In this document: piece after piece, positions 12,028-16,425 of the stretch
Numbering within the stretch: position 1 is the stretch's first letter
How the letters are laid out: the number at the start of each line of letters is the position of its first letter
Origin: Erysipelotrichaceae bacterium
GTDB lineage: Bacteria > Bacillota_I > Bacilli_A > Erysipelotrichales > Erysipelotrichaceae
NCBI GenBank assembly: GCA_030523555.1
Contig: JAUNIH010000015.1
Location: forward strand, 1 to 33,129
Length of the DNA stretch: 33,129 nucleotides
Direction of reading: 5' to 3'
The notes under the pieces: generated by a model
The model's database searches: none
What the model was told of the DNA's origin: nothing
Seen by the model: the letters and a program-made list of their open reading frames with translations, nothing else
Made by a program: the position numbers and the translations under genes

Positions 12028-12032
12028 AGTTT

Positions 12033-12216
12033 TGCGTAGTAAGGACAAGTAATTCAGAATATTTCTTATAGAGAGATAAGGGCTGGTGAAACTTATCAGA
12101 AAGACTGAACGAATCTACCTTATAGTATGTCTAATAAGACACGTGTATTCGCGTTAAGAATGTGAGTTAGAAAAAAGGTGGCACCGCGTCATTGACGCCC
12201 TTGAGGTGCTTTTTTA
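12033..12216 (+). promoter_or_regulatory. T-box riboswitch leader of serS (serine type)
   Basis: The T-box core AAGGTGGCACCGCG is at 12175-12188. The terminator pairs GCACC (12181-12185) with GGTGC (12205-12209), with an inner GCGTC/GACGC helix, and is followed by a run of T. In Stem I an AGTA strand (about 12047-12050) faces GAA TCT (12111-12116), which suggests a UCU serine specifier. Uncharged tRNA-Ser is expected to stabilise the antiterminator and allow serS transcription. Confidence 0.93.
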
Positions 12217-14267: not shown

Positions 14268-14287
14268 ATAGAGACAAAATACGATAA

Positions 14288-14293
14288 TATAAT
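14288..14293 (+). promoter_or_regulatory. -10 box of the SRP RNA gene
   Basis: TATAAT at 14288-14293 places the transcript start near 14297-14300, at the 5' end of the SRP RNA helix. The -35 region has no good TTGACA match at 17 bp. Confidence 0.6.
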
Positions 14294-14296
14294 AGT

Positions 14297-14374
14297 GGTA
14301 CAACATTCATGTTACTAACTTGGTCAGGTCCGGAAGGAAGCAGCCATACGAACCTCTGTCTGTGTGTACCTTTT
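14297..14374 (+). ncRNA. ffs: Signal recognition particle RNA, small bacterial type
   Basis: The diagnostic apical part, GGTCAGGTCCGGAAGGAAGC at 14322-14341 followed by AGCC, contains the GGAA tetraloop and the symmetric internal loop bound by the Ffh M domain. The 5' GGTACAA (14297-14303) pairs with the 3' TGTACC (14365-14370) to close a single long hairpin, and TTTTT follows. At about 78 nt it is the short form without an Alu domain. It works with Ffh and FtsY in targeting membrane proteins. Confidence 0.95.
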
Positions 14375-14382
14375 TATTTAAT

Positions 14383-15792: not shown

Positions 15793-15944
15793 ATTATAGG
15801 TATAAAAAAAGAGAATTACAGAATTCCCCCAACAATATAATTATCGCATAAATAAATTTTTAAAAAAAGACTATTCTTTTTGACAGAATCTTTATATATT
15901 GAAAGTGTAAAGAAGTATATATAATCTAAAATATATAATCCAAA
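15793..15944. other. AT-rich region with promoter-like elements
   Basis: No coding potential is seen. TTGAAA (15899-15904) and TATAAT (15920-15925) are separated by 15 bp. A second TATAAT lies at 15934-15939, in a direct repeat of ATATAATC. A perfect TTGACA at 15880-15885 has no -10 at suitable spacing. These could start the structured RNA downstream. Confidence 0.45.
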
Positions 15945-16043
15945 GATAACAAACCAGAATAATACATATATTGGATAATATATGATCAGAAGAAAAATAT
16001 ATATTTTAGGAAAATATATATAACTTTACAGGAGGTAGTAAAA

Positions 16044-16073
16044 ATGAAGGAGATTCTAAAAGAAATTCATTAA
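16044..16073 (+). CDS. Micro-ORF 1, 9 residues (MKEILKEIH)
   Basis: ATG at 16044 has a strong AGGAGGT (16030-16036) 7 nt upstream and ends at TAA 16071. The first five codons (MKEIL) are identical to those of micro-ORF 2. The start codon can pair with CTCCTCAT just after the stop. It could be a leader peptide. Translation is unproven, and the purine-rich start could instead be a purely structural RNA element. Confidence 0.4.
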   Translation: MKEILKEIH

Positions 16074-16138
16074 GCTCCTCATTCAATGAATCAGCGTTGA
16101 ATGAGTGATATTCTAGCTGATGAAAGGTGAATAACAGT

Positions 16139-16165
16139 ATGAAGGAGATTCTACTAAATTATTAG
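16139..16165 (+). CDS. Micro-ORF 2, 8 residues (MKEILLNY)
   Basis: ATG at 16139 follows AAGGTG (16124-16129) at 9-nt spacing and ends at TAG 16163. It shares the exact 15-nt start ATGAAGGAGATTCTA with micro-ORF 1. As there, CCTCAT shortly after the stop codon can pair with the start region. Evidence for translation is limited to the ribosome-binding site and the duplication. Confidence 0.35.
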   Translation: MKEILLNY

Positions 16166-16312
16166 TTATTCCTCATATGTATAAAATATACCAGTAACAT
16201 ATGAGTGTATTAACTGGTTGATTATAAAAAACCAAATAAAAATAATTTAAAAAAATTAAATAGCGAAAAAGTTCGCAAGATAGTAAATCATATTAAAACT
16301 ATACTAAAACAG

Positions 16313-16355
16313 GACCATCAGATATATTCTAAAAAGAATAATGATGGTCTTTTTT
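16313..16355 (+). terminator. Strong terminator ahead of dnaX
   Basis: GACCATCA (16313-16320) pairs with TGATGGTC (16342-16349). An inner TATTC/GAATA helix (16325-16340) stacks on it, and TTTTTT follows. It separates the putative RNA from the dnaX promoter. Confidence 0.92.
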
Positions 16356-16370
16356 ATAGTCCTGATCATT

Positions 16371-16419
16371 CTGGTTACATCTGGTTACATGAATTGGAAA
16401 GAAGGGAACTTGTTATAAT
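16371..16419 (+). promoter_or_regulatory. dnaX promoter with an upstream tandem decamer
   Basis: TGTTATAAT is a full extended -10 (TATAAT at 16414-16419). It ends 6 nt before the dnaX ATG, so transcription would start at or next to the start codon. CTGGTTACAT is repeated twice head to tail at 16371-16380 and 16381-16390, just upstream of the expected -35 region, and may bind a regulator. Confidence 0.65.
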
Positions 16420-16425
16420 ATAGTC

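Follow-up and report, generated by a model that had tools for sequence, protein, structure and literature searches.

A probable new family of RNA genes with tandem micro-ORFs and post-stop pseudoknots, apparently from Erysipelotrichaceae

In the repY-repZ system of plasmid ColIb-P9, a short leader ORF is followed by a hairpin after its stop codon, and the loop of this hairpin pairs just before the next Shine-Dalgarno (SD) sequence. Other described systems include the dual-function small RNAs, of which SR1 and RNAIII are examples. Leader-peptide attenuators, including the uORF candidates of PMC11109978, are found upstream of one consistent gene. The repY-repZ pseudoknot is cited in PMC10724649. 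Here we describe an RNA element in a window of 33,129 nt (contig C90 of a 1.79-Mb assembly), in which positions from about 15905 to 16355 are almost certainly one copy of a new conserved RNA gene family.

Among leader-peptide switches, the predicted anatomy of this RNA most closely resembles the repY-repZ pseudoknot: a putative hairpin-loop pseudoknot adjoins the next SD in the window, and the corresponding helix covaries in homologues. Unlike repY-repZ, the RNA appears as a free-standing chromosomal gene with a terminator, a conserved peptide of 8-9 codons and tandem units; its predicted tiny RNA is divergent and is not an antisense overlapping the leader, no replication protein gene adjoins the loci examined, and there is no sequence match to plasmids. 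Operation as a switch of this kind is only inferred, and membership among such switches fails since there is no constant downstream gene. As in the attenuators of PMC11109978, a conserved short ORF with an SD is followed by potentially switchable stems and a terminator (the short ORF, SD and structure are present according to sequence and conservation; translation is inferred), whereas the family lacks a consistent downstream gene and its peptides do not consist of a run of a single regulatory amino acid. The consistent controlled gene that would define a cis-acting leader-peptide attenuator is missing, and the layout without a terminator is limited to three copies in two genomes. With dual-function small RNAs the family shares, as far as the sequence alone can tell, its own promoter and terminator, a structured RNA and a conserved small ORF; unlike in SR1 and RNAIII, the ORFs are much shorter, arranged in tandem and each equipped with its own hairpin, no target is known and there is no Rfam match.

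According to the sequence, the gene order in the window is dnaA, dnaN, recF, gyrB, gyrA, serS, SRP RNA, a tadA-like deaminase gene, a gene for a DUF2975-like membrane protein, an HTH_26 regulator gene, the RNA element and dnaX (best named relative: dnaX of Solobacterium sp. UBA1761, 51% identity). This dnaX match makes the organism a probable member of the Erysipelotrichaceae. The original prediction placed an unrecognised structured RNA in a gap of about 630 bp between the HTH gene and dnaX, with two units of about 95 bp that share an identical 15-nt micro-ORF start, and with a strong terminator closing the gap. All of this could be confirmed: the gap measures 633 bp (15793-16425), the two starts are identical in sequence and 95 bp apart, and a terminator lies at 16312-16355. 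Instead of at 15945, where the start had been placed, the RNA probably begins near 15905. Folding of a 416-nt segment gave z = -5.5 against dinucleotide shuffles, with 0 of 100 as good.

The following features of the window copy lie on the plus strand. The predicted promoter (15872..15900) has a -35-like TATTCT (15872-15877), a 17-nt spacer and a -10 TATATT (15895-15900); the match to the consensus is weak by itself, and the call rests on alignment with the conserved promoter region of the homologues. The predicted RNA gene (15905..16355, from fold and homologues) begins at the conserved GTGTAAAG and ends with the terminator. Hairpin P1 (15996..16021; 11 pairs; z = -4.6, 0/200 shuffles), just upstream of the first SD, is wholly unlike in sequence the GATCCGG..CCGGATA stem found at the same place in homologues. 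Unit 1 comprises the SD AGGAGG (16030..16035), micro-ORF 1a (MKEILKEIH*, 16044..16073; supported by peptide conservation), in which an SD-like AAGGAG directly follows the AUG, and hairpin P2a (16078..16105), which begins 4 nt past the stop codon and pairs CTCATTCAA (16078-16086) with TTGAATGAG (16097-16105); the homologous stem covaries, and a 65-nt segment beginning at the stop codon gives z = -3.9. Unit 2 comprises the SD-like AAAGGTG (16123..16129), micro-ORF 1b (MKEILLNY*, 16139..16165; MK(E/K)(I/V)LLNY peptides are found in other genera) and hairpin P2b, pairing CTCATATGT (16172-16180) with ACATATGAG (16197-16205). Both of the proposed 9-bp hairpins are present, but each is part of a predicted H-type pseudoknot that had been overlooked: ATCAGC (16090-16095) with GCTGAT (16116-16121), spanning 16090..16121 and with a covarying homologous helix, and ACCAGT (16190-16195) with ACTGGT (16213-16218), giving 16172..16218 together with P2b. 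A single nucleotide separates the end of the unit-1 pseudoknot (16121) from the SD of unit 2 (16123). The segment from the stop codon of micro-ORF 1b gives only z = -1.4, and there is an alternative, competing fold in which the start of ORF 1b pairs with the 5' strand of P2b. The intrinsic terminator, GGACCATCA..TGATGGTC followed by T6 (16312..16355), has z = -4.7 (0/200 shuffles) and a related terminator in locus L005.

Homologues span about 12 genera within one GTDB family, apparently Erysipelotrichaceae. In the genus of the window, blastn detects the element in about 20 of 36 genomes, mostly at unrelated genomic positions; the RNA is dispersed within the genus. These loci have in common the conserved promoter region, hairpin, SD, MKEILKEIH micro-ORF, pseudoknot and terminator, and most also have a GGAGGAnAGACC box; the MKEIL-like second unit of the window is unusual in this genus, as most other members carry the GGAGGAnAGACC box at that place. 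A covariance model (R1) built from 16 same-genus loci, with the window left out, matches unit 1 of the window at E = 2.1e-11 and unit 2 at E = 0.005. Using R1 and a degenerate micro-ORF pattern, we obtained hits in 84 of the 316 genomes from the order, representing 12 genera; two of these hits fall in the sister family and look like chance, and the reversed pattern gave no match in the same survey. The common plan consists of a promoter, one to four units (SD, micro-ORF and a hairpin right after the stop codon), usually a core and usually a terminator, the latter being found at 65 of 92 loci as compared to 10 in shuffles. Many loci have a single unit, and four is the maximum per RNA. Some genera have several copies per genome; copy numbers in these genomes are probably underestimated because contigs end at near-identical repeats, as expected (contig ends within or near RNA copies: G206:C29, C39 and C54; G205:C46 and C128; G024:C11). 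Anchoring on dnaX homologues retrieved only distant relatives. The claim that the RNA belongs to no known family stands: Rfam gave one chance-level match below the cut-off on the window, and none of its covariance models exceeded the gathering cut-off at 20 homologous loci. No occurrence of the micro-ORF peptide strings was found in the literature searched.

Covariation among homologues, which had been suggested as a check, was observed for the pseudoknot. In the same-genus alignment, pairing in the two helices of the pseudoknot reaches 98.3%, and 16 cells are doubly changed; none of 500 shuffles reached its paired percentage, doubly-changed-cell count or covariation score, and 7 of 500 reached its number of covarying pairs. 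This significance is somewhat overstated, since the aligned sequences are related. Outside the alignment, wholly different pairs occupy the same place in L005 (CTAAGAG with CTCTTAG) and in both units of the window. The argument that stems differing between the two units with pairing kept are a mark of selection is weak for two stems in one molecule alone, but the homologues supply strong evidence for it. In 119 units, the 65-nt segment that begins at the stop codon has a median z of -2.7 (70% below -2), as compared to -0.15 (8% below -2) for control segments from the same loci. The post-stop stem sequences vary widely among genera, and in several other genera a plain hairpin takes the place of the pseudoknot.

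Micro-ORF 1 encodes 8-9 aa with the consensus MK(E/K)(I/V)L(L/K)(E/N)(Y/F/I/L) plus zero or one further residue. Within the genus, ORF variation is almost wholly synonymous (ATT/ATC/ATA, CTG/CTA/CTC/TTG, AAA/AAG, TAA/TGA), the sole exception being Lys6 to Leu. All six leucine codons (CTA, CTG, CTC, CTT, TTA, TTG) are found at Leu5 and Phe in none of 120 units, even though the search pattern permitted Phe at this position, which argues that the peptide of micro-ORF 1 is under selection. Homologues that lose both stems and micro-ORFs would have refuted the original prediction; they keep both, and its description as an unrecognised structured RNA with tandem micro-ORFs is supported by the absence of an Rfam family, the covariation and the mostly synonymous codon variation. 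Codons 2-4 are mostly AAGGAGAUN, AAAGAGGUN, AAGAAGGUN or AAAAAGGUN, each of which contains an SD-like run. Because one survey pattern had fixed the third base of codon 3, we redid the count using only loci found with the core model, from which micro-ORF 1 is absent (a few loci are counted twice in this list): the base is G in 43 of 43 (GAG 30, AAG 12, AGG 1), so the SD-like sequence is under selection as well. The Glu7 codon, in contrast, is GAA in 104 of 104.

The usual core has the form GUCUG-n-GAGG-n-CAGACCAAUGGACAA, which opens a second micro-ORF; outside the genus of the window, GAAAGUGaaGUCUGnnnGAGGnCAGACCAAUGGACAA usually comes after the last unit. The core hairpin GUCUG/CAGAC is 94% paired, with modest covariation (12/500 shuffles as high). 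The ORF opened by the core AUG is short, often five codons (MDKIT, MDKFY, MANFG, MGNSI and others), and is present at 61 of 67 loci with a recognised core; mainly its start and short length are conserved. The window and its genus lack the core AUG, so micro-ORF 2 is dispensable there, and the window has no recognisable core. In one genus, the whole 3' half yielded no usable consensus with RNAalifold, as sequence lengths vary too much there. The core model (R2) has matches in 77 of the 268 genomes of the family, spread over 9 genera. It also provides the better class-wide survey, since our first class-wide pattern demanded nine codons and its negative result is weak. In 336 genomes of the class, R2 finds four family members and one doubtful outsider. 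This outsider (L385, G538:C3:7712-7784, E 8e-5), the only core-model match outside the family, sits behind an 18-codon ORF, MTKVLLLMTRLRELKDLT, which has an RLR motif and is not of the MKEIL type; whether it is a chance match or a distant relative is unclear.

Upstream on the minus strand, a -10 element is followed by TGTTG(G/A)GG, a variable hairpin and a T-run at 70 of 95 family loci, as compared to 2.8 expected from mononucleotide shuffles. The -10 is TGnTATAAT or TGnGATAAT, usually exactly 5 nt from TGTTG(G/A)GG, and the predicted self-terminating transcript of about 30 nt starts with UGUUGGG. In the window, an extended -10, TGCGATAAT (15840..15845, minus), lies 5 nt before a predicted transcript of about 31 nt, UGUUGGGGG (15804..15834, minus; called from the sequence and the layout common to family loci), with a GAAUU/AAUUC hairpin (15813-15826, minus) and then a U-run; taken alone, this fold is no better than shuffles. 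In many genera the -35 regions of both promoters overlap in a AAACAGaCTGTTT palindrome. The bidirectional promoters of PMC12825309 likewise face apart and share pseudo-symmetrical elements; in contrast to those, it is apparently the -35 region that is shared here, and the divergent arm carries a conserved UGUUGGG start and soon meets a terminator. The simplest reading of these predicted signals is a bidirectional promoter whose other arm is terminated early. The putative tiny RNA may possibly be functional. Pairing of its start UGUUGG with CCAACA/CCAAUG of the core is merely an idea, as it would involve only six pairs.

Across 89 loci we counted 57 downstream gene families. A divergent nudC-like NADH-pyrophosphatase gene adjoins 33 of 92 loci and pepP is downstream in 28 of 92, mostly in one large genus (loci with such neighbours include L005, L134-L137, L164, L172, L183, L209 and L339, among others). 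This site is probably the ancestral location, and a functional link between the RNA and nudC is not excluded; in G025, from the genus of the window, nudC still adjoins the RNA, on the other side. The copies without a terminator, two in G172 (L334, G172:C3:89000-98000) and one in G048 (L196, G048:C2), consist of the 5' part of the RNA leading into ORFs whose products would be a lipoprotein-like protein of 254 aa, a small protein that looks secreted and a glycine-rich protein of 101 aa; Pfam gave only a sub-threshold match for the first and none for the other two. G172 has a second core copy after the small secreted-looking ORF.

Our main reading, to which we assign a probability of about 45%, is that the family encodes a translated, ribosome-responsive regulatory RNA that is usually free-standing and acts in trans; there are no expression or ribosome data and no known target, so expression, translation, a ribosome-driven switch and an output in trans are all inferred. 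Ribosomes would load at the SD of micro-ORF 1 and translate its 8-9 codons, possibly slowed by the SD-like run across codons 2-4; pausing at internal SD-like sequences is debated. Further points against this reading are that the window and its genus lack micro-ORF 2, that several other genera have only a plain post-stop hairpin, and that covariation in the core hairpin is modest. A ribosome near the stop codon would melt the hairpin or pseudoknot that starts a few nucleotides downstream, and its occupancy may set the choice of fold and the accessibility of the ribosome-binding site that comes next. In the window this site belongs to unit 2, and in other genera it would be the GAGG that the GUCUG/CAGAC hairpin presents in its loop ahead of micro-ORF 2. 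At most loci the RNA would signal translation status in trans; the three copies in two genomes would do so in cis. A more tentative proposal, which we regard as possible and no more, is that this is a new class of ribosome-read regulatory RNA, a free-standing multi-step translation sensor with tandem 8-9-codon micro-ORFs, each bearing an SD-like run past its AUG and a hairpin or pseudoknot past its stop codon, and accompanied by a conserved RNA of about 30 nt from the divergent promoter.

The main rival to a ribosome-responsive RNA, itself somewhat improbable, is a micropeptide gene, whose product would be the peptide of 8-9 aa itself (fMKEILKEIH and its relatives), serving as a signal inside the cell or after export, or as a microprotein that binds a protein, with RNA structure merely tuning translation and stability. 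It would account for the selection on the peptide, for tandem units with different peptides (e.g. MKEVLLNYR then MKEILLEIH) and for the several copies per genome in some genera, but not for the conservation of core and pseudoknot beyond the ORF, the SD-like constraint inside the codons, or a micro-ORF 2 that conserves mainly its start and short length; so short a peptide also shows no export signal. That amino acids are conserved with free synonymous change is likewise unexpected if the RNA were a trans base-pairing sRNA whose micro-ORFs only recruit ribosomes for protection or processing, a reading that we find unlikely even though the free-standing transcription unit with its terminator and conserved non-ORF stretches such as GUGUAAAGAG and AACUGAAUA fit it. 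The original prediction had offered both a new sRNA and a small-peptide locus; both are still possible, and a combination of them fits the data best.

Conserved peptide residues are also left unexplained by a ribosome or 30S sponge, or translation brake, in which strong SDs and futile minigenes would take up ribosomes or sequester tRNA during stress; each unit has a strong SD and a second SD-like run past the AUG, and an RNA can have as many as four units, but many loci have one, and we consider this very unlikely. Least credible of all is a dnaX leader (attenuator), or a decayed functionless remnant in the genome of the window. In favour of these, dnaX lies downstream and the window copy is AT-rich and without recognisable core. 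The cis attenuation of dnaX that had been envisaged is nevertheless not supported, and dnaX is an incidental neighbour: the RNA is closed by its own terminator and a separate TATAAT (16414-16419) precedes dnaX, other loci adjoin other genes, with neither dnaX nor the HTH and DUF2975 genes found as neighbours there (two weak dnaX-neighbour matches are diverged sequence, 38%), and the ORFs, stems and pseudoknots of the window are intact.

The family adds to the known RNAs a gene that is absent from Rfam and conserved over about a dozen genera, apparently of Erysipelotrichaceae, with two kinds of micro-ORF that are among the shortest callable by conservation. If translated, it would provide a natural test system for the effects on ribosomes of 5- to 9-codon ORFs and of SD-like sequence after the start, and possibly a hub of regulation in gut bacteria that are common. 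A second testable oddity is the mirrored divergent promoter and its early terminator.

Other types of element were considered and rejected. A phage or plasmid element has no match in phage or plasmid records (matches of the micro-ORF pattern on viral contigs lack the core), and a type I toxin does not fit peptides of 8-9 aa that are charged, nor a predicted minus-strand transcript that does not overlap the RNA. For tmRNA, ARAGORN found none in the window and the tmRNA of this genome is at G000:C2:22253-22601. For 6S RNA there is no RF00013 match at the locus, and a sub-cut-off candidate is found elsewhere in the same genome (G000:C59:4295-4460, E 6.8e-6). In genus g1 (36 genomes), detectable 6S RNA and the RNA element are nearly complementary in distribution, both being present only in G000 and G024, which probably reflects phylogeny and model sensitivity. 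Other structured RNAs in the window include two T-box leaders, upstream of a lysS-like gene (1562-1746, minus) and of serS (12028-12205, plus), and a bacterial small SRP RNA (14287-14382, plus).
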